Positions 6,102 to 26,961 of a stretch of 31,662 nt of DNA are shown piece by piece. This DNA is from a virus, in IMG/VR virus record IMGVR_UViG_3300043570_000593, positions 1 to 31,662 of that record. One strand, 5' to 3'. Positions within the stretch are counted from its first letter, which is position 1; the number at the start of each line of letters is the position of its first letter. The position numbers and the translations under genes are program-made. A model generated the notes under the pieces. The model was not told the origin of the DNA. It ran no database searches and saw only the letters and a list, made by a program, of their open reading frames with translations.

Positions 6102-6791
6102 TTACACGCCCGGGCTGGCTTCATCCTCAGACACTAGGTTGGCTTTAATTTCTTCAAGGATGGCTTCTCGGTAATTAGACCGTTCAAAAGCCTCGTATCG
6201 ACTTTCTAGAGAGCCTTGCGGTTTGTCCGAAAATGGAGAAATAGTTAAATTGTTACTTAAACTAAGTAATGTTGGAGTCGAAGAAAACCTCATTAAATTA
6301 ATTGAATCCTCGGTTGAAAACTTAACATAAAATAAAGGTTCATTTTTTGTGAAAGTTATTTTACCTTTTTCTTTAAAAGTAATTATTTCAGCCTCAATAC
6401 TTCTAAACCATTTACCAATATCGTATATTCCGCCTACGAAAGTCCCTTGCCTCATATAACTAGATTTTTCAAAATAAGGTGAGGATACTTGAACCTTCAA
6501 AGATTTTTCGGCAAACATAATTGTTGAAAAACATAAATTAAAAATGTTAGTTTCTATTAATTGAGGAGCCCTCTTGTAATAAATCTCTTTATTATTAGAA
6601 GCGCTAGCAAAACCTTTTTTATAACTTACATAAAAATCCTCGGTAAGATTGAAAGAATATGTGTTACTAAAAAAATCTCTTACCGCTGGACACCCTAAAA
6701 AATTAACTTTGGCTTCGGTAGAGCGTAATCCTTGAAGATGAGAATATACTTTTGTAACTTTGAGGGCAGAAGAATAATATACATTAATCAT
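6102..6791 (-). CDS. B-type cassette protein, copy 2 (229 aa, unknown function)
   Basis: Paralogue of the protein at 7492-8205, although overall identity looks low. Shared landmarks are the start MINVYYSS (MKTVYWSP in the paralogue), a segment GGIYDIGKWFRSIE at residues 120-133, and KNEPLFYVKFSTED at 149-162. The G-G-x-x-D-I-G-x-W-F-R ... N-x-P-x-x-Y-V-x-F pair has the spacing of dUTPase-like motifs 3 and 4, though the key residues are only partly kept. Codon use is very A/T-rich compared with the structural genes around it, a sign of separate acquisition. The start overlaps the stop of its A-type partner as ATGA. Confidence 0.8.
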   Translation of the reverse strand: MINVYYSSALKVTKVYSHLQGLRSTEAKVNFLGCPAVRDFFSNTYSFNLTEDFYVSYKKGFASASNNKEIYYKRAPQLIETNIFNLCFSTIMFAEKSLKVQVSSPYFEKSSYMRQGTFVGGIYDIGKWFRSIEAEIITFKEKGKITFTKNEPLFYVKFSTEDSINLMRFSSTPTLLSLSNNLTISPFSDKPQGSLESRYEAFERSNYREAILEEIKANLVSEDEASPGV

Positions 6792-7492
6792 AAATACTCT
6801 TTTTTTGTTCTAAACTTACCTCTGTATCCATTAACAAAAGTGGACCTTACTAAACTACTTACTCGATTAATGTCTTGTCGTTCTTCGTTCCCTCCAATTT
6901 TCATTTTGTAAGATTCTCTCTTGAAAGGAATAATTTGGGCAATTGGAGTCCCAGCAGGAACAGTTCCAATAAATCCTTCATCTACTAAAAAGGGGAATTG
7001 AACCGGTACTGTGTATTTGTCTGTATCTACCACTCCTTCTAAAATTCTTATTCCACATGCAGGTTGATGCATTGGAGGTATAAATAAACAAGAATAACCT
7101 TTTGGAGTTTTGATACCCCAAGGGTTTCTAAGTTTAGGCGCCCCGCTTTGTAAGAATAAATTCTTATAATTTACTAATTGATGAGGTCCGTGAATTTGAA
7201 TATGTTCTCCGCTATCCCAACCCCAATAATAAGAAGCAATTCCATTTTCATCTCTTTGAACTACTAAATCAGTAAAAGTTTTAATAATGTAACCTGAGGT
7301 AATTGCGTCAAACACAGGCATACATCTTTTAATAGTTTGGTTATCGGCAATCTCTTTATCATCTTTGGCGTTTTCGGTACCAGTTACCATTTCTTTATAC
7401 CAAGCAGGTATAGATTTATTAGCGGAGACAGGAAAATAAGGCTCTGTAATGAAAGTGCTATCATGTTGCAAAGTAAAAATAATTTCTACCAT
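6788..7492 (-). CDS. A-type cassette protein, copy 2 (234 aa, unknown function)
   Basis: Paralogue of the protein at 8205-8939. Shared blocks are SANKSIPAWYKEM (24-34), TIKRCMPVFDAITSGYII (53-70), NPWGIKTPKGYSCLFIPP (123-140), GVVDTDKY (153-160) and AGTPIAQIIPFKR (180-192). I recall similar uncharacterised proteins in cyanophages and other aquatic phages (possibly the family called DUF6065), but I cannot verify the family. The block G-V-V-D-T-D-x-Y followed 20 residues later by G-T-P-I-A-Q resembles motifs 3 and 4 of the trimeric dUTPase fold. The start overlaps the upstream B gene as TAATG. A/T-rich codons set it apart from its neighbours. Confidence 0.82.
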   Translation of the reverse strand: MVEIIFTLQHDSTFITEPYFPVSANKSIPAWYKEMVTGTENAKDDKEIADNQTIKRCMPVFDAITSGYIIKTFTDLVVQRDENGIASYYWGWDSGEHIQIHGPHQLVNYKNLFLQSGAPKLRNPWGIKTPKGYSCLFIPPMHQPACGIRILEGVVDTDKYTVPVQFPFLVDEGFIGTVPAGTPIAQIIPFKRESYKMKIGGNEERQDINRVSSLVRSTFVNGYRGKFRTKKEYL

Positions 7493-8205
7493 TACCCGAC
7501 CTCGTTTCTTTTTATTTGTTTAGTTATTATTTGATTCAACCCTCGTTTATTAAACTTATCATATAAATAAAGTAAAGTTTTTTTGGGCTCGTACAATTTA
7601 TATTTTATACAACCCCAAGACAGTTCTTCAAGTTCTTTGGTCATATAAAATCGTTTTAATTGAACAGGCTCGTCGGTTTCAAATCTTACATAGGCTATCG
7701 GGTCGTTCCGTTTAAATGAAACAGTATTAACATTTGGATTAAGTTGAGTTGCACCTTCTATTGGTCTAAACCATTGCCCAATATCCATAGAACCTCCAAT
7801 GTAATAACCGTCAACTATTGGTTTGTGATAATATGCTGGCATTGAAGTCATAACTAAAGGTTCTTCTGACCAAAATATCCAATTGCCACGGATTGCAAAA
7901 GTATGAGCCTCTATAACTGATGGTTGTTTGATGGCTACAAACTTCATATTTTCGTGATTATTACTAATTGGAATAACACCCAATTCAGTATCTAATCCAA
8001 AAGTAACATCAAAAGGAATTCTTAAAACAAATGTATTTTTTACACTAGCAAGAAAAGCGTGGCATTGGAACCAATTATCTCCATTTGTCTCTTTATTGCG
8101 CCGAGGTAATAAATCTGTTAATAATGAGTCGGGTTCTTCATACATTAATTGAATAGAAGGGTATTGCTCTGTTGGAAAAAAGGGAGACCAATAGACAGTT
8201 TTCAT
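7492..8205 (-). CDS. B-type cassette protein, copy 1 (237 aa, unknown function)
   Basis: Begins MKTVYWSPFFPTEQYPSIQL. The conserved C-terminal half contains IGGSMDIGQWFRPIE (136-150) and FKRNDPIAYVRFETDEPVQL (164-183), shared with the paralogue at 6102-6791. The segment N-D-P-I-A-Y-V-R-F resembles the G-T-P-I-A-Q-V-L-P-F of the A-type partners, so A and B proteins may be distant relatives with the same fold. No catalytic motif can be named with confidence, and there is no signal peptide or membrane segment. It lies between A1 and A2 with TAATG overlaps on both sides, so A and B are probably made in fixed proportion. Confidence 0.8.
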   Translation of the reverse strand: MKTVYWSPFFPTEQYPSIQLMYEEPDSLLTDLLPRRNKETNGDNWFQCHAFLASVKNTFVLRIPFDVTFGLDTELGVIPISNNHENMKFVAIKQPSVIEAHTFAIRGNWIFWSEEPLVMTSMPAYYHKPIVDGYYIGGSMDIGQWFRPIEGATQLNPNVNTVSFKRNDPIAYVRFETDEPVQLKRFYMTKELEELSWGCIKYKLYEPKKTLLYLYDKFNKRGLNQIITKQIKRNEVG

Positions 8206-8939
8206 TATTTATAACTTTTTGTTTGACGCATAAAACGACTATAAAATCCATCCAAGTAACTATCTCGTAGAGTCATTAACATAGAATACTTTTCGAGATT
8301 ACTAGGTATTACCTTATTAATCCATTTCTTTCTTTCAAAAGGTAGGACCTGTGCTATTGGAGTTCCTTTTGGAATGATTCCTTGAAATCCTTCTTTTATA
8401 AAAAAGGGGATATTTCCAGCGACACTAAAATATCCGCTATCAATAATTCCTGATGTGGTTACAAATGGCAAGTCGTTTCTATTAAAAGGATGTGTTACTA
8501 AAACAGAATCTTTCTTTGAAGTTTTAATCCCCCATGAAGCCGACCAAGCAAACATTATTGGATAAGTACCCAAAGGGTTAGGCATACCAAATCCTTGAGA
8601 AGAAACATCATTTATATCTCCTCGTTTTTCAACAACTGAAAATTGAAGAGTTTGATTTGAAAATACATCTACATCTCCCGTAATTGATTGAGTCACTTCT
8701 ATATCCGCTGTTGTTAAAAGTAAGTATCCACTTATCATTGCGTCTCGAAAAGGAACACAAGTTTTTAAATCTTTTTGACCCAAAGCCCTGATAGGCTTAT
8801 CTGAATTATTTACATATCGCGGTAGTTTTTTATACCATTCAGGAATGGCTTCTGAAGCAGGAATTGGATTGCTTTTCACCGCCTCGACATATTTATCGAA
8901 AGGTTGAAAAGTTATTTTTTTAAAAGAAAAAAGACCCAT
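8205..8939 (-). CDS. A-type cassette protein, copy 1 (244 aa, unknown function)
   Basis: The first gene of the A-B-A-B cassette. Landmarks shared with the A2 protein are ASEAIPEWYKKLP (28-40), DLKTCVPFRDAMISGYLL (57-74), WGIKTSKKDSVLVTHPF (136-152), GIIDSGYF (164-171) and KGTPIAQVLPFERK (191-204). The GIIDSGY ... GTPIAQ pair keeps the Asp-x-x-Tyr spacing of dUTPase motif 3 and the G-x-x-I-A-Q of motif 4, but the remaining dUTPase motifs are not evident. The ATG lies inside the 3' arm of a perfect hairpin (8931-8959) and has no clear Shine-Dalgarno, so expression is probably limited or controlled. Confidence 0.82.
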   Translation of the reverse strand: MGLFSFKKITFQPFDKYVEAVKSNPIPASEAIPEWYKKLPRYVNNSDKPIRALGQKDLKTCVPFRDAMISGYLLLTTADIEVTQSITGDVDVFSNQTLQFSVVEKRGDINDVSSQGFGMPNPLGTYPIMFAWSASWGIKTSKKDSVLVTHPFNRNDLPFVTTSGIIDSGYFSVAGNIPFFIKEGFQGIIPKGTPIAQVLPFERKKWINKVIPSNLEKYSMLMTLRDSYLDGFYSRFMRQTKSYK

Positions 8940-16478: not shown

Positions 16479-17066
16479 TTACTTTGTTAGAGAAGAAGTG
16501 GCAATACCTAGTCGGACTTGGGCTCGTACTTCCATCAAGATAGTGCCTAGCCAGTTTCTACCACTACGCATTAAAGGGTCTTCGATAATATAAGTTGAGC
16601 CGTCAGGCTTTGTTCCTAATAAATCTACTCCCCACACTTTATCGTTCCAAAAGGTGCCTTCCTGAAGGTAGGCATTTCCAGTTCCCAAAAGAGCATCAGT
16701 TAGCATTGGTGTAGAAAGGAACTTTTCAGCCACGATAGTTTTCATAACATTATATTTGATTTCTTCCCAATCGTGTCGAATAGTAGGAGCAGTTCGTCCT
16801 AGAGTCTTTGCCTCCTGAGGGTCTGTTGAGCGATTAATCCGTAGATACAAGTCCTCATCTACTTCATAAACTTTCTGAGCGGCGTATGCGTGTTCAGAAG
16901 TTGCCCACACCCTTCCATAAACTTTGAAAGGTGAATAATAAAAGTTTGAAAGGAATGAGTGAGGATTATTTGTTCCTAAATCATCAAACCAATCAATCAG
17001 CACATCGGGGTTCTTATTCAGAACTCCTTCGTAAGTAAATCCTGTCGTTTCTAAAACTTTAGCCAT
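16479..17066 (-). CDS. NADAR-family N-glycosidase / ADP-ribose hydrolase (195 aa)
   Basis: A YbiA/NADAR-fold enzyme. Family motifs in order: HSFLSNFYYSPF (36-47), ATSEHAYAAQK (55-65) with the characteristic Glu, DPQEAKTLGR (82-91), DWEEIKYNVM (99-108), FWNDKVWGV (139-147) and SGRNWLGTILMEVR (168-181). Family members cleave N-glycosidic bonds in riboflavin intermediates, or remove ADP-ribose, including from guanine in DNA modified by DarT-type toxins. All the usual motifs are present, so it should be active. The ribosome site CCCAAGGAG is strong. It lies in the same operon as the MuF protein with an ADP-ribosyltransferase-like C-terminus, which suggests a protective role; that is my inference. 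Confidence 0.9.
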   Translation of the reverse strand: MAKVLETTGFTYEGVLNKNPDVLIDWFDDLGTNNPHSFLSNFYYSPFKVYGRVWATSEHAYAAQKVYEVDEDLYLRINRSTDPQEAKTLGRTAPTIRHDWEEIKYNVMKTIVAEKFLSTPMLTDALLGTGNAYLQEGTFWNDKVWGVDLLGTKPDGSTYIIEDPLMRSGRNWLGTILMEVRAQVRLGIATSSLTK

Positions 17067-18699: not shown

Positions 18700-20088
18700 T
18701 TATGCTCCTTCAGGTAAATCAACTAACATTCTTTCAGCCTTACCGCCAATAGAATACCCAGTTAGTTTGCCTTTCTTAACTAATTCCCACGCCCAAGGTT
18801 CCCATTGAACTCCCATAAATACAGTTCCAGTTGGATAAGTAACGGCTTCTGTTGTGCCATCTACTTTTGTAACAGGAACGGTTACAGGGTAAGGCCAAGT
18901 CATAGTTTCTAGCCATTCGCCAGCAACAACATCTTTGTTATGTTGAAGTCGGATTCGGCGGTCCCCTTTTTTAACATAATTCCATAAAGCGTTTTGCAAT
19001 TCTTCTGTATCTGTCCACTCATTATGAGCATCAGCGGTATCGGGAATGTACCAAGGACCTAAAGTAAATCTTTTCTCGTCAGCCTTAAATACTGTTTCTA
19101 TCTCTCCGTAAGACTTTGCTAAGTCATATTGCCTAAATAATTTATCTACCCAAGTCTTCGCTGCATCCCCACCCCAAGCAGCGTACGCAACCCGACCAGG
19201 AGACGGATACCCGGTCTGACCAACTTTATAACCTTGTCCTTCTCTATCAACTTCGTGACGAGCAAGAAATGATTTCATACGGGCGAGAGTATCTCTTGAT
19301 ACTCCCTCTCCATTGGCTAGTTGAGATGCGCGAGTGCGACCTACGCTTGTGAAGTTTGCTCCAGCGTGTCCTTCTTTTATCCAAGCGAGCGCACGCTTTG
19401 CTTCTTCTTGTACTGCTTTAGGCGGCACAAAAGTATCGGGTGTAGATTTTTCTTTACTAATAAGTTCTCTAATCTTTTCAATGAGTGAGGCAGATTCTTC
19501 TACTTCTACTTTATCGCTTTCTATTTCTATTTCTTTAGGACGAACAACAATCATGTAGCCGCCTATGTCGAGCATTTGTAATACATCAGCAAACTTATAT
19601 CCATTATCAATACCTGTTTGGATAATCCCTTTTACTGGACCAAGGGAACGGTTCTCTGATTTGATAAGAGTTTCTAATTCAGTTTCTACTGAATCAATTA
19701 CCAACGCCTCGCTCCACTTTCCACAAGAACAATCACACTCTTGTCCTGCTTTTAAGATTTCTTCCATAATGCTGTGGTGAACAAATAGTTGAGCCTCGCT
19801 AGGAGTATCTGTTTGTTTGTGCAACATATCGTGTTGCGTTATTAGCGTATCCACACTCTTGCTTAGAGTTGGTTTCTTTACTCGAACTCGACCCATACCA
19901 GTAGGAACATGAACATCACTAACTGTTGGTCCTTCTTTTTCTGTTGCATCAGGAACATTGGCATACAAGGCTCGTTGGTGTTTTAAAGCATCTTGACGGT
20001 TCTTATGGCAACCAACAGTTTCTCCACCTTCATCAACTACAGCAAAGCCATCGCAGTCGGCGGCATTAGTTTCTATTGTGTATGGCAT
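18700..20088 (-). CDS. XkdF-like prohead protease, three-domain fusion (462 aa)
   Basis: The C-terminal domain (about residues 340-455) reads LQHNKDVVAGEWLETMTWPY, TGTVFMGVQWEPWAWELVKK and KLTGYSIGGKAER. The H383 ... E391-W ... G-Y-S446-I-G-G pattern is that of XkdF-like (S78-type) phage serine proteases that mature the prohead. The N-terminal 45 residues (FAVVDEGGETVGCHKNRQDA) and the middle domain (ALAWIKEGHAGANFTSVGR; ARMKSFLARHEVDREGQGY; PSPGRVAYAAWGGDAAKTW) are units I know from other actinobacteriophage assembly proteins, here joined in one chain. CDCSCGKW at 118-125 is a possible metal site. The ribosome site is weak. Confidence 0.82.
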   Translation of the reverse strand: MPYTIETNAADCDGFAVVDEGGETVGCHKNRQDALKHQRALYANVPDATEKEGPTVSDVHVPTGMGRVRVKKPTLSKSVDTLITQHDMLHKQTDTPSEAQLFVHHSIMEEILKAGQECDCSCGKWSEALVIDSVETELETLIKSENRSLGPVKGIIQTGIDNGYKFADVLQMLDIGGYMIVVRPKEIEIESDKVEVEESASLIEKIRELISKEKSTPDTFVPPKAVQEEAKRALAWIKEGHAGANFTSVGRTRASQLANGEGVSRDTLARMKSFLARHEVDREGQGYKVGQTGYPSPGRVAYAAWGGDAAKTWVDKLFRQYDLAKSYGEIETVFKADEKRFTLGPWYIPDTADAHNEWTDTEELQNALWNYVKKGDRRIRLQHNKDVVAGEWLETMTWPYPVTVPVTKVDGTTEAVTYPTGTVFMGVQWEPWAWELVKKGKLTGYSIGGKAERMLVDLPEGA

Positions 20089-20100
20089 AGGATTATTCTT

Positions 20101-20409
20101 TCATAAGACAGGCGGTTGGAAGGCTAGTAACGCTTTACTTATAACATCTTCTTTTGAAAGACCTGCTCTCTGTGGGTCCAAGCCAACTTCTTTTGCATCT
20201 TTAATCTCTAACCCTCTTAGAGTTACTGAATCCTTTAGAAACCGTCTAGTCCGAGCGCCGTCAAAGATAGAAATTATTTCTTCATCTTCTTGGCGTAGGT
20301 ACATTCCTACGATTTTATTCTTTCCTCGTTCAAGAAGAAAGGGACCGTAAGCAATTACGCCTTCATCTGGTCCACCCCATATAGGAGGATTGAGTATTAA
20401 ATCTTTCAT
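20101..20409 (-). CDS. Small hypothetical head-region protein (102 aa)
   Basis: Reads MKDLILNPPIWGGPDEGVIA, YGPFLLERGKNKIVGMYLRQ, and ends SKEDVISKALLAFQPPVL. The first half looks beta-rich, the second helical. I do not recognise a family. The ATG overlaps the MuF stop as ATGA, and the protease starts 12 bases after it ends. Encoded directly after the MuF protein, it could be an accessory or immunity-type partner for the MuF C-terminal domain, but nothing in its own sequence shows that. Confidence 0.7.
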   Translation of the reverse strand: MKDLILNPPIWGGPDEGVIAYGPFLLERGKNKIVGMYLRQEDEEIISIFDGARTRRFLKDSVTLRGLEIKDAKEVGLDPQRAGLSKEDVISKALLAFQPPVL

Positions 20410-22691
20410 GGGTTCAAATCGTACGCTGATAATCTAAGAACATCTTCTAACTCTCTGCCATCAAACCACATAATCATTCCACTCTCTCTTAATTTAGCAA
20501 GAGTTTTTTCGCGGATTGAACCAGCCAAATAAATAGCCTCGACATTGTTAAAATCAACATTTTGAGAAAACATTACTTCTCCAGAACCTCTAGCAAGTTT
20601 AAGTTCTTCTATGTAATCAACAGCATCAATTCGTCCAGTTTTTGAAGAAGCACCCATATAAAAGCCGCCAACATTTGGGTTCTTAACTCCGTAAGAATCG
20701 TCAGAATAGGCAAACCAATCTGTTCGCTTCAACAAATCGTCTGACTTATACACGATTGTATTTCTGCCTCCACCTTTAGTCATGTCTGCTGCTTTTTTGG
20801 GAGAGAAAAATACATAATCAGCGCCACCTGTTCTTATGTCTTTACCTTCACTTAAACCGAAACCTGTTATACCACCATTGTATCGTTCAGTAGTTGCTTG
20901 TAATCTACCGCTTTTAATTAAGCCAACAATGTAATCACTTTGTTCATCTGTGCCTCTGTAACGAATAACTGAGTTATTAAAATCGTGTAGTAAATGCGTC
21001 TTACCTGTTTCTTTTATAATTGCCTTAGTAACTTTATCTGGCATAACGAAACGCAATCTACCTGTGCTATCTATCTCAGTAGTTATTTCACTTAGACTAA
21101 ATCCGTATTTCTTTTCTAAGGCTTTTAATCGTGATTTCCGTAGAGCGTTAGTCGCCTTCTTATCTTCTTGGTGGAACAGAGCAAGGATTTGGTTATCTCT
21201 TAAAAGGTCAATGTCTGCTTGTGAGGGTAGGCGGTTAGCAGTAATACCTAAATCTTTCATTACTTCTTGTATTTGAGCAGGAGTTGCTTTGCCCGGAATC
21301 ATAACTTTTATTTGTCCATCTAAAGCAAACCCATCATCAACGCTACTTATAACTCGAACGGCTACTCCGTTAGGATAATATCTTGTGTAAGTTGTTCCTT
21401 GACGACCGATGAATTCAAAGTCGCCTGAGTTACCTAGTCCATCATCGAAAGTCTGGAATTTAAGTACGCCATTTCTTTTCTTATCTAAAACGGCTACTCG
21501 TTCTTTACTCCACTCGCCATTATCTCGCGCCACGCTTCGTTCTATCTTTTGTAACAATAATGTTTTAGATACATCTGTTGCTTTGAATCTTAATTCTGTA
21601 TGTGGGCTTCCGTTAAAGATAACTCGTTCTGCATGAACATTAAGTCCTTCAATTTCTCCAGCATCGTATTGAAACGCAGTTCCTTTACCGTTATCTGCAA
21701 AAGCAGAGGTAACAGCATTTTCAGGCGTCCGTAGGTTAGCAATAGGAATAGTTGGAAGTAATGGCATTGGAATATCAATAACAGGTGGAGCAATCTTTGC
21801 TGGTGGCATAAAAGATTGAGCAAGTGATGAGTCAGGTTCAAGTAATGAGATAGAACAACGGCACATAATATGAGCAGGTGGGTTGAATACTCCGTTAGGA
21901 AAAGATTCATTCCATACAGTTGATTTACCATTCATCGGCATACAAATATCACAAGTGCGTTCATCGGTAGAAGTACTCCACCGTTTCATAGACTTAGGGT
22001 GCGCCCAACCTTGTTCAACGGCTTGAGTAAATCCTAAATACCTTCCGTGATTTTCTGCCATAAGTATTTCGTGACGAGCAATCATATTGGCTCTGTACTT
22101 AATCATTTTTTTGTATTGGCGCTCGCCCATAGCAAGTCGCTGAGCCGCAGTTATCTTTCCTGCTCTCACCTGTTCATCTAAGTTATCTATGAACTTTCCA
22201 AAACTAATTGCTTGTCGGTCATTTAAACCAATCACACTTCTTAATTTTCTAGCGGTATCGTAAACAGTTACATTCTGAGTAAAGGCTTCTGAAACAGTTT
22301 GGCGAATAATGCTTCTTGTTGTATCCGTTACCGCTGTTACTAACTGAGCAGATTGATTAGTTGCCCACTCAATACTTCTTGGGTCTGTAAAGTCGAAGCG
22401 ACCTTTAAATCCAACTTTAGGAAAGCCACCGCCAATGTTGTCTTGTATTACTTGACCAAAGGTAGAAGCGGTTTGATTAATCATTTGAGCAGAAGAATCC
22501 CAAGGGAAGGCATCTACAACTCGTTCTATATTCTTTGCATCTAACGCCTCACGAACAGCATTAGACATCGCCGCCGCTTGTAAATCCGAATCATGCGTTT
22601 GAAGTATTCGTCTTACTTCTCGCTCGGCTGGAGTTAGTGGAATTGGGTCGGGGCGTGGTTCATCTCTCCTTGCTTTATTAACAAGAAGCAT
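20406..22691 (-). CDS. MuF-like head morphogenesis protein with C-terminal putative ADP-ribosyltransferase (761 aa)
   Basis: Residues 1-285 are a MuF-type minor head protein: helical start, then RANMIARHEILMAENHGRY, WSTSTDERTCDICMPMNGK (C247, C250) and FNPPAHIMCRCSISL (H274, C277, C279). After a Pro-rich linker (295-320) come about 440 further residues, far longer than a plain MuF. The last 200 read HLLHDFNNSVIRYRG, IVGLIKSGRLQATTERY, TGGADYVFFSPKK and GSGEVMFSQNVDFNNVEAIY. The order (H-x-x-x-x-x-N, I-x-S-G-x-L, G-G-x-x-Y-V-F-F, E705-V-M-F) resembles DarT-type or related ADP-ribosyltransferases. MuF proteins with toxin-like C-termini are known from other phages. MuF identity is sure; the transferase call is inference. 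Confidence 0.85.
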   Translation of the reverse strand: MLLVNKARRDEPRPDPIPLTPAEREVRRILQTHDSDLQAAAMSNAVREALDAKNIERVVDAFPWDSSAQMINQTASTFGQVIQDNIGGGFPKVGFKGRFDFTDPRSIEWATNQSAQLVTAVTDTTRSIIRQTVSEAFTQNVTVYDTARKLRSVIGLNDRQAISFGKFIDNLDEQVRAGKITAAQRLAMGERQYKKMIKYRANMIARHEILMAENHGRYLGFTQAVEQGWAHPKSMKRWSTSTDERTCDICMPMNGKSTVWNESFPNGVFNPPAHIMCRCSISLLEPDSSLAQSFMPPAKIAPPVIDIPMPLLPTIPIANLRTPENAVTSAFADNGKGTAFQYDAGEIEGLNVHAERVIFNGSPHTELRFKATDVSKTLLLQKIERSVARDNGEWSKERVAVLDKKRNGVLKFQTFDDGLGNSGDFEFIGRQGTTYTRYYPNGVAVRVISSVDDGFALDGQIKVMIPGKATPAQIQEVMKDLGITANRLPSQADIDLLRDNQILALFHQEDKKATNALRKSRLKALEKKYGFSLSEITTEIDSTGRLRFVMPDKVTKAIIKETGKTHLLHDFNNSVIRYRGTDEQSDYIVGLIKSGRLQATTERYNGGITGFGLSEGKDIRTGGADYVFFSPKKAADMTKGGGRNTIVYKSDDLLKRTDWFAYSDDSYGVKNPNVGGFYMGASSKTGRIDAVDYIEELKLARGSGEVMFSQNVDFNNVEAIYLAGSIREKTLAKLRESGMIMWFDGRELEDVLRLSAYDLNP

Positions 22692-24661: not shown

Positions 24662-24973
24662 TTAGGGTAAGAATTGAGAAAAAGCCTTCATTAATTTATA
24701 AGGTTCAATCTCATCTCTTTTTTGTATTTGTTTTCTTTCTTTTTCATCTGTGCCGCCCCATATACCTTCAACATCTGTGCCGATTGCATAAGTGCGACAA
24801 GCCGACTGTACAGGGCAGGTCCGACAAAGTCCTTTAGCGATTTCCGTAATCTTTATAAAGTTGTTATTTCGTTCAGGGAAGAACAATTCGGGGTCGGTTA
24901 TGGCGCAAGGCTCAAAACCAGTTGTTGGTGGATAAGGCGGTGGTGATGAATTCACAAATTGCGTCCGAGCCAC
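24662..24973 (-). CDS. WhiB-family iron-sulfur transcriptional regulator (103 aa)
   Basis: The four cysteines are in the WhiB order: C23 (GFEPCAITDPELFFPE), C50 and C53 (GLCRTCPVQ), C59 (SACRTYA), followed by EGIWGGTDEKER (69-80), the glycine-rich turn that contacts the sigma factor. WhiB proteins carry a [4Fe-4S] cluster, bind the principal sigma factor and are confined to Actinobacteria and their phages, which makes this the best host marker in the window. It may redirect host or phage promoters. The start is a GTG at 24973 without a clear ribosome site, 22 bases inside the upstream membrane-peptide gene, so coupling is likely. Confidence 0.94.
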   Translation of the reverse strand: MARTQFVNSSPPPYPPTTGFEPCAITDPELFFPERNNNFIKITEIAKGLCRTCPVQSACRTYAIGTDVEGIWGGTDEKERKQIQKRDEIEPYKLMKAFSQFLP

Positions 24974-25077: not shown

Positions 25078-25236
25078 TTATTTCCAAAGAAAAGTCATTA
25101 ATACCAACCCAAGATAAACTCCAACTACACCTGCGATTCCGGCGGCGGTTGGTGGTGCTGGGATTGGAAACTTTAATAATGTAAAGACTGAACCAACTGC
25201 AATACCTGTAACAAGGCTAAGAATTATCGCCTTCAT
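25078..25236 (-). CDS. XapX-like small membrane protein (52 aa)
   Basis: Reads MKAIILSLVTGIAVGSVFTL, LKFPIPAPPTAAGIAG, VVGVYLGLVLMTFLWK. The pattern S-L-x-x-G-x-x-V-G-x-x-F-x-L-L-K-x-P-I-P-A-P-P-x-x-A-G-I-x-G-x-x-G-x-x-L-G is that of the XapX (DUF1427) family: two membrane helices around a conserved P-I-P-A-P-P turn. The family is bacterial and of uncertain function; I would not have expected it in a phage. The ribosome site CCAAGGAG is strong. The ATG lies 20 bases inside the upstream gene. Confidence 0.82.
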   Translation of the reverse strand: MKAIILSLVTGIAVGSVFTLLKFPIPAPPTAAGIAGVVGVYLGLVLMTFLWK

Positions 25237-25486
25237 TTTCAACTCCTTGGTCTAAGTGATGTTGTATCGCACCAGTATCAATGGCGTGTTGCAACATTCC
25301 GCTCTTTCGCCAGATTGGTAAATCGGGCTCGGAGTGAGTACTAAACCAGTAATTGCCTTCACTGTCTATCCACTCACTTACCAGTATCCAAGTAGTACAC
25401 ATCGCACCTTCTTTGTCAAGAAGGGTCGCAAGACCTTGAACAGCATGATTTACGGCATCCATTTTTGCTTCTGCGTCATCAGACAT
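25217..25486 (-). CDS. Conserved hypothetical protein (89 aa)
   Basis: Reads MSDDAEAKMDAVNHAVQGLA, then CTTWILVSEWIDSEGNYWFS, PDLPIWRKSGMLQHAIDTG and a short acidic tail. The T-T-W-I-L-V-S-E-W-x-D-x-x-G-x-x-W-F ... P-x-W-R-x-x-G-M-L block recurs in small actinobacteriophage proteins whose role is unknown. The ribosome site GAGAGGGG precedes the ATG. No membrane segment or metal site is visible. Confidence 0.75.
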   Translation of the reverse strand: MSDDAEAKMDAVNHAVQGLATLLDKEGAMCTTWILVSEWIDSEGNYWFSTHSEPDLPIWRKSGMLQHAIDTGAIQHHLDQGVENEGDNS

Positions 25487-25884: not shown

Positions 25885-26439
25885 TTATTTTACAGCCTTT
25901 TTCTTTATAATCGGTTTCTTTTGAGTATGAAAAGTAAATGGCGGTGCGGTGTATGGGTCTATCTCTGAAGCAATTTGTAATGCGGTTGGAATGTCTGCTT
26001 TTGCTTTAAGTGCTCCTATTGCTAAAGATGAACCCGAACCAATTCCATAAATACCAGCGGCATCAAGACAAACGGATAAATCATCACTTATTTCAAAGAC
26101 TTCACCCTCAATAGATACCAAGAAAGCAAACTTAGTTTCATCATCTTCAGCATCCCATTTGTACTCGTTCTCTTTAAAACTCTTTTTCAGAGAGGGGATA
26201 ACTACTGAAATCATAAAGTGGTAAAGGTCTTTCTTGTCCATAACAGTAGGGATAGGCGGTTCCCAAATATGTTGAACAATGTCGCAAGCGGCTACTTCGC
26301 CACTTCCAGCAATCATGTATGGACCAGTATTAGTTACTTTAACCATTTTAGGGTGGTTATATTTTCTTTCAGCAGTAACAAGAGAATCAGAACCCATAAC
26401 TACGCCATCGGCGAATTGGACAGCAACGATTGTGGTCAT
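25885..26439 (-). CDS. Proteasome-beta / HslV-like Ntn hydrolase (184 aa)
   Basis: The start is set at the ATG at 26439, so that Met removal exposes Thr1: TTIVAVQFADGVVMGSDSLV. Counting from that Thr, D17 and K33 (NHPKMVKV) fall exactly where the 20S proteasome catalytic triad T1-D17-K33 lies. Further typical blocks are YMIAGSGEVAACDIVQHIW and YGIGSGSSLAIGALKAKAD, the loop carrying the conserved serine. It is therefore probably an active N-terminal-nucleophile threonine protease of the proteasome/HslV fold, without a visible ATPase partner. A TTG start seven codons upstream would bury Thr1. The C-terminus is basic (KKPIIKKKAVK). Confidence 0.85.
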   Translation of the reverse strand: MTTIVAVQFADGVVMGSDSLVTAERKYNHPKMVKVTNTGPYMIAGSGEVAACDIVQHIWEPPIPTVMDKKDLYHFMISVVIPSLKKSFKENEYKWDAEDDETKFAFLVSIEGEVFEISDDLSVCLDAAGIYGIGSGSSLAIGALKAKADIPTALQIASEIDPYTAPPFTFHTQKKPIIKKKAVK

Positions 26440-26496
26440 GCTTGGAAGTCTAAAAGACAAACCTTAAAAACACCAAGAACGACTCCATAATTCAAA

Positions 26497-26513
26497 AAAC
26501 TAAACCTTAGTTT
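26497..26513 (-). terminator. Weak A/T-rich hairpin after the lysozyme-like gene
   Basis: AAACTAA (26497-26503) and TTAGTTT (26507-26513) form a 7-bp A/T stem with a 3-base loop overlapping the stop codon, followed on the minus strand by TTTTGAATT. The stem is weak; a terminator function is uncertain. Confidence 0.35.
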
Positions 26514-26961
26514 AATACCAGCCGTTGCGTTCTTTGAACGATTTTGCCTTACATGGGGAGCCGTATCTGTGTTCGATATAGCCAAGTCCCCACTCAATTT
26601 GTTTTACTGGGTCTTTAAGAAAGTTAATCTTTTCAGCAGTTGTGTGGTTTGGCATATTGCGCTGAGGGATTCCGTGGTCCTTAGTTGGAGAAACGGCTTT
26701 GTAGTTCCAAGCAGATTCTTTACCCCATACCCAGTTAAGACATTTCCACTCTTTCTTGTTTGTCCAGCCATAGTCAGCAAGTTTCTTCTTTGCTACAAGG
26801 CGAGCCTCTTGAGGGTTGAGTGGAGTCGGCTCAACTTTCTTTACTACAACAGGAGCCGTTACTACGACTTGTTCTTGATTAAAGTAGCCGCCAATTCCGA
26901 TTCCGATAACTGCGGCAAGGACTGAGATAACAATTTGATTTTCATATTTAGTGAGTTTCAC
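26512..26961 (-). CDS. Membrane-anchored lysozyme-like / transglycosylase domain protein (149 aa)
   Basis: The N-terminal helix NQIVISVLAAVIGIGIGGYF (about 8-27) is a signal anchor. After a Pro/Val linker the domain begins KKEWKCLNWVWGKESAWNYK with E82 in the catalytic position, then DHGIPQRNMPNHTTAEKINF and KQIEWGLGYIEHRYGSPC. The W-x-C-L-x-x-x-W-x-x-E-S-x-W-N ... G-I-P-Q ... Q-I-x-W-G-L-x-Y-I-x-x-R-Y-G-x-P-C-x-A pattern is the actinobacterial aggregation-promoting-factor / RpfB-like lysozyme fold. C74 and C137 could form a disulfide. It probably cleaves peptidoglycan from outside the membrane, for lysis or superinfection control. The start is GTG after GGTGA. Confidence 0.83.
   Translation of the reverse strand: MKLTKYENQIVISVLAAVIGIGIGGYFNQEQVVVTAPVVVKKVEPTPLNPQEARLVAKKKLADYGWTNKKEWKCLNWVWGKESAWNYKAVSPTKDHGIPQRNMPNHTTAEKINFLKDPVKQIEWGLGYIEHRYGSPCKAKSFKERNGWY

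Follow-up and report, generated by a model that had tools for sequence, protein, structure and literature searches.

The window (the whole stretch of viral DNA analysed, positions 1 to 31,662 of IMG/VR record IMGVR_UViG_3300043570_000593) encodes a 184-aa protein that is almost certainly a proteasome-like Ntn hydrolase. The protein is nearer to the group-I homologues BPH (betaproteobacterial proteasome homologue) and HslV than to 20S beta subunits or PrcB. Its class has already been described (PHROG 1040; PPH and AAH in Fuchs, Alva and Lupas, 2021, PMC8665760); the new element is an abundant actinophage clade that includes both cultured Planktophila phages, LanE43-AprE7 and LanE43-AprF5 (hereafter E7 and F5). 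As to its function, we lean towards a putative active, self-assembling protease that works independently of an unfoldase.

Protease gene and active site

The protease ORF was read on the minus strand from an ATG at 26439 to a stop codon ending at 25885 (Table 1); the plus strand across 25885-26439 is interrupted by several stops. An alternative in-frame TTG at 26460, seven codons 5' of the ATG, is probably not the real start, to judge from aligned sequences, because in close relatives a stop codon lies just 5' of the MTT start and because the start codon varies among homologues (ATG, GTG, TTG or ATC) and always abuts Thr1. ATC is apparently used as the start directly before Thr1 in two homologues (L090:4038 and L092:4484). 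Given this invariable position of the start, and since the reading frames 5' of the homologues' starts are short and unconserved, the protease was assigned no propeptide. As a general rule the initiator Met is removed from proteins with Met-Thr N-termini, and host methionine aminopeptidase would strip it here and expose Thr1 directly.

The mature window protein contains Thr1, Thr2, Asp17, Lys33, an 'AGSG' oxyanion-type turn (G44/G46) and a GSGSS loop (G133-S134-G135). The first-pass annotation had placed T1, D17 and K33 at the proteasome positions after Met removal and had noted the GSGSS loop, and both statements proved correct. Loss of the catalytic residues in most homologues, which it had named as grounds for abandoning its reading, was not seen: T1, T2, D17, K33 and G46 were identical in 159 of 159 aligned homologues, so that the residues required of group I (Thr1 or Ser1, Asp17, Lys33 and an oxyanion Gly) are all present. 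Values of dN/dS were 0.02-0.08 in nearly all close-relative pairs, and purifying selection, as judged at the codon level, acts on the gene.

Table 1. Positions of the protease gene, its active-site and pore-loop segments and selected neighbouring genes in the window
Feature	Position	Strand	Evidence or remark
CDS, 184 aa, proteasome-like (BPH/HslV-type) Ntn hydrolase subunit	25885..26439	-	ORF, PF00227, PHROG 1040, profile, model, Foldseek
Thr1 codon, nucleophile after Met removal, immediately 3' of the start codon	26434..26436	-	identical 159/159
Asp17 codon	26386..26388	-	identical 159/159
Lys33 codon	26338..26340	-	identical 159/159
Acidic pore-loop segment NEYKWDAEDDETKF, between helix H2 and the next strand	26128..26169	-	model helix 72-90, strand 104-110
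GSG loop, mature residues 133-135	26032..26040	-	both Gly invariant where present, Ser 153/159
Lytic transglycosylase / APF C-terminal-like, hydrophobic N-terminus, upstream of protease	26512..26961	-	PF01464 4e-7, NF052397 1.8e-22
84-aa ORF downstream, begins 4 bases past the protease stop codon	25626..25880	-	kept in nearest lineages only
89-aa protein with SEW motif	25217..25486	-	homologue overlaps protease gene by 4 bases in E7/F5
WhiB-like transcription factor, actinophage marker	24662..24973	-	PF02467 1.1e-16
Head-maturation protease candidate, Peptidase_S78_2/XkdF, between MuF and capsid genes	18700..20088	-	PF14550 3.5e-13, head-protease PHROGs

Family assignment and predicted fold

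The window protein matched Pfam PF00227 above the curated cut-off (E=6e-6) and PHROG 1040, 'peptidase HslV family', over residues 1-175 (E=1.3e-26); the PHROG match is whole-length, to a broader profile that is named without further function. Taken with the invariance in 159 of 159 homologues and the dN/dS values, these two matches argue that the active-site match is not due to chance. Scores against the NCBIfam models fell far below their cut-offs, at 23.4 bits for the HslV equivalog (157.75 and 137) and 18.7 bits for bacterial PrcB (191.9), with a similarly weak match to the archaeal beta equivalog. When a sequence profile was compared with solved structures, two BPH structures ranked first (1.7e-9 and 2.8e-6).

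An AlphaFold2 monomer computed from 27 sequences (pLDDT 88, pTM 0.85) had a proteasome-like fold. BPH was the best match by Foldseek against the PDB (5ovs, 2.3e-10), followed by HslV and 20S beta, and TM-scores of the model against solved structures were moderate (0.6-0.7). Model and search thus agree on an Ntn hydrolase of the proteasome family and not on an unrelated fold, the other outcome that the earlier reading had held would undo it. The model contains the group-I beta-sheet core with H1-H4, including helices at 49-58 (H1) and 72-90 (H2) and a strand at 104-110, and is without the C-terminal S12/H5 and without insertions; no helix or strand was assigned to the tail past residue 174.

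The description 'proteasome-beta-like' therefore stands as regards the proteasome family and the intact catalytic residues, but the nearest homologues are BPH and HslV rather than PrcB, given the 18.7 bits against the PrcB cut-off and the first rank of BPH by both profile and fold. In the proposed comparison with HslV and PrcB, the equivalog scores were well short of membership in either. A 20S beta subunit (PrcB) was excluded by the PrcB score, the absence of a propeptide and the finding that no record has more than one match to the proteasome family; membership of the HslV equivalog was excluded by its 23.4 bits and by the absence of a detected HslU in the window and 20 further phage records; and PPH (~140 aa, H2 missing; PMC8665760) was excluded by the length of 184 aa and by the helix at 72-90.

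The first-pass annotation had also suggested that the protein might poison or alter the host proteasome. Joining or poisoning a host 20S particle is highly improbable: a proteasome is present in many Actinobacteria (Table 1 of PMC8665760), but the similarity to bacterial PrcB is distant, a poison would not require that all catalytic residues be kept in every aligned homologue, and no evidence for such a role was found.

Pore loop, partner subunits and proposed mechanism

The acidic segment that follows H2 lies at the same position as the pore loop of BPH and is a little shorter. Its net charge is -4 in the window protein, -6 in BPH and +1 in E. coli HslV. The post-H2 segment is net negative in 99% of homologues (family mean -3.7), but its acidity is weak or absent in the most distant members, DSL-LC01 (-1) and Pumpernickel (0). 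In BPH the loop (Gln95-Glu101 region) lines the pore and closes over the inhibitor, and was proposed to help recognise substrate without an unfoldase, none being known for BPH (PMC5777263).

BPH (5OVS, 5OVT and 5OVU) is the best solved match by profile and fold, and shares with the phage clade T1/D17/K33, the GSG loop, the lack of a propeptide, the acidic pore loop and the lack of a known unfoldase. The two differ in sequence (~25% identity) and in setting, the phage protein being phage-borne and actinobacterial; BPH forms a heptameric double ring; the model of the phage protein is of a monomer. In a tree made rough by long branches, BPH sits on a very long branch at an open fork. HslV (ClpQ) is alike in fold, catalytic residues and GSG loop, but the phage protein is 22% identical to E. 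coli HslV, has no HslU and has an acidic rather than a basic pore region.

No AAA_2 (ClpX/HslU-type) ATPase was found in 21 records (the window and 20 relatives, several of 58-62 kb), and no alpha subunit was found in the records searched. The lack of both in the window, already remarked upon at first reading, extends to these longer relatives. Matches to PF00004 (AAA) in some relatives were mostly weak, and the window and its ~60 kb relatives had no such match; those in E7/F5 and in lineage L072 lie in ORFs of about 260 aa, which are probably replication-type P-loop ATPases and small for an unfoldase. PADLOC gave no match.

A host AAA+ unfoldase (ClpX/ClpC or Mpa/ARC) could serve the phage protease, which would then redirect ATP-dependent degradation to host or phage targets. 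The phages' lack of a ClpX/HslU-type ATPase of their own and the requirement of HslV and 20S cores for an ATPase on folded substrates fit such borrowing; we nevertheless consider it unlikely, as the host is not expected to have HslU (in Table 1 of PMC8665760, Actinobacteria carry no mark for HslV), the acidic pore loop is like that of BPH and unlike the short basic region of HslV, and no conserved docking motif was seen in the short, variable C-terminal tail.

Most likely, we infer, the protein is a homo-oligomeric Thr protease that needs no unfoldase and acts during infection. By analogy with BPH and HslV, its processed subunits would most likely form a closed, homo-oligomeric double ring, inside whose chamber Thr1 with Asp17 and Lys33 would cut peptide bonds. 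As has been proposed for BPH, the acidic pore loop would control entry in place of a dedicated unfoldase, and the enzyme would probably trim or remove polypeptides of host or phage, either unfolded or specific ones.

Conserved residues need not mean general proteolysis, since its best analogues in structure, Td-BPH and Cm-BPH, were inactive on the model substrates used (PMC5777263). This inactivity, and the presence of the ligase connectase in the proteasome-like family (PMC8665760), would suit a specialised Ntn enzyme, be it a connectase-like protein ligase or an amidohydrolase, in place of a general protease. Such an enzyme is quite improbable here, because the model contains both ring-contact helices, H1 and H2, which are absent from connectase, and the phage protein has no S3-S4 insertion (PMC8665760).

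Distribution and relation to known homologues

A first IMG/VR scan returned 79 loci, and an alignment-based scan returned at least 439 confirmed relatives; the search of related phages proposed at first reading thus found the gene widely, with the triad kept throughout the aligned set. GenBank phages with a homologue include OX376640/OX376641, DSL-LC01 and Pumpernickel. The first two are E7 and F5, the first phage isolates on 'Ca. Nanopelagicales' (PMC10202952), and both of these cultured 'Ca. Planktophila' phages encode the homologue. In DSL-LC01, a metagenome-assembled Actinomycetia phage, the homologue is annotated HslV and a WhiB gene lies directly downstream; in Microbacterium phage Pumpernickel it is annotated protease. 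No bacterial relative was found in genome-contig scans with strict patterns, which distant relatives may escape, and no tRNA genes for host assignment were present in the window's protease region or in the 59.6-kb relative G001. The actinobacterial setting first supposed is borne out by the nearby WhiB gene and by the isolation of E7 and F5 on 'Ca. Planktophila', and the window phage probably infects freshwater actinobacteria.

Group-I proteasome homologues, AAH and PPH, were already known in phages, but no Actinobacteria-specific phage with AAH could be found by Fuchs et al. (PMC8665760). Against that null, actinophages carry group-I homologues in large numbers, and the protease clade is abundant in freshwater actinophages. 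The roles of BPH, AAH and PPH are orphan, and among homologues beyond HslV and 20S only connectase has a known role (PMC8665760). Because the homologue occurs in cultured 'Ca. Planktophila' phages, what a proteasome homologue without an unfoldase does can now be tested in real infection.

AAH-like proteins from plasmids of rhizobia and Streptomyces, so labelled from their hosts, begin TCI or TVI, have GCG for GSG, and are 26-27% identical to the phage clade, from which they fall on a separate branch (100/99) in the rough tree. On sequence comparison the phage clade is related to AAH yet apparently distinct. The plasmid relatives with GCG are L178-L180 and L182, and L180 lies within a nif gene region.

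Gene neighbourhood

The genes around the protease in the window run in the order transglycosylase, protease, 84-aa ORF, 89-aa SEW protein, WhiB, SSB, 75-aa ORF and portal. A transglycosylase gene lies up to ~430 nt upstream of the protease in several lineages. The SEW protein, suggested as a partner of the protease by the overlap of their genes in E7/F5, was ruled out as a fixed one because in other lineages its gene lies 8-9 kb away on the opposite strand. In L016, the largest lineage, the protease gene is flanked by the parts of a split primase, a DnaG-type zinc-finger ORF on one side and a primase-like ORF on the other, and overlaps each by 4 bases (L016:4002-5505); in E7/F5 and L072 it directly follows the portal gene. 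The protease would seem to be an accessory enzyme whose gene sits in one module or another depending on the lineage.

The position after the portal gene, and a scan of F5 head-region proteins that turned up no other head protease, would fit a protease of head maturation or other virion assembly. That role is distinctly unlikely, given the variable neighbour genes, which in L016 are of primase type and elsewhere include a transglycosylase or deacetylase outside the head module, and given the window phage's own S78_2/XkdF domain in its head module.

In five lineages (L015, L116, L156, L148 and L088; about 22 loci), the window not among them, a histone-deacetylase-family gene (PF00850, 1.8e-53; L015:617-1510) lies upstream of the protease on the same strand, mostly within ~45 nt. 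A fuller scenario, possible but doubtful, is that the actinophage homologues form a distinct clade of compartment proteases that gate themselves, use no ATPase and have an acidic pore like that of BPH, and which would degrade particular host or phage proteins in infected members of the dominant freshwater actinobacteria, in several lineages together with a co-transcribed deacetylase-family enzyme.

Three further features of the window, all on the minus strand, were recorded. A NADAR/YbiA-type domain-like protein is encoded in the head module at 16479-17066 (phrog_1017, 1.3e-34). The 761-aa MuF head protein (20406-22691) is covered by PF04233 over residues 178-281 only and has a long C-terminal extension. 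A low-GC block at 6102-8939 (~34% vs 43%) holds four genes of 229-244 aa that resemble two related pairs, and is possibly a recent import.
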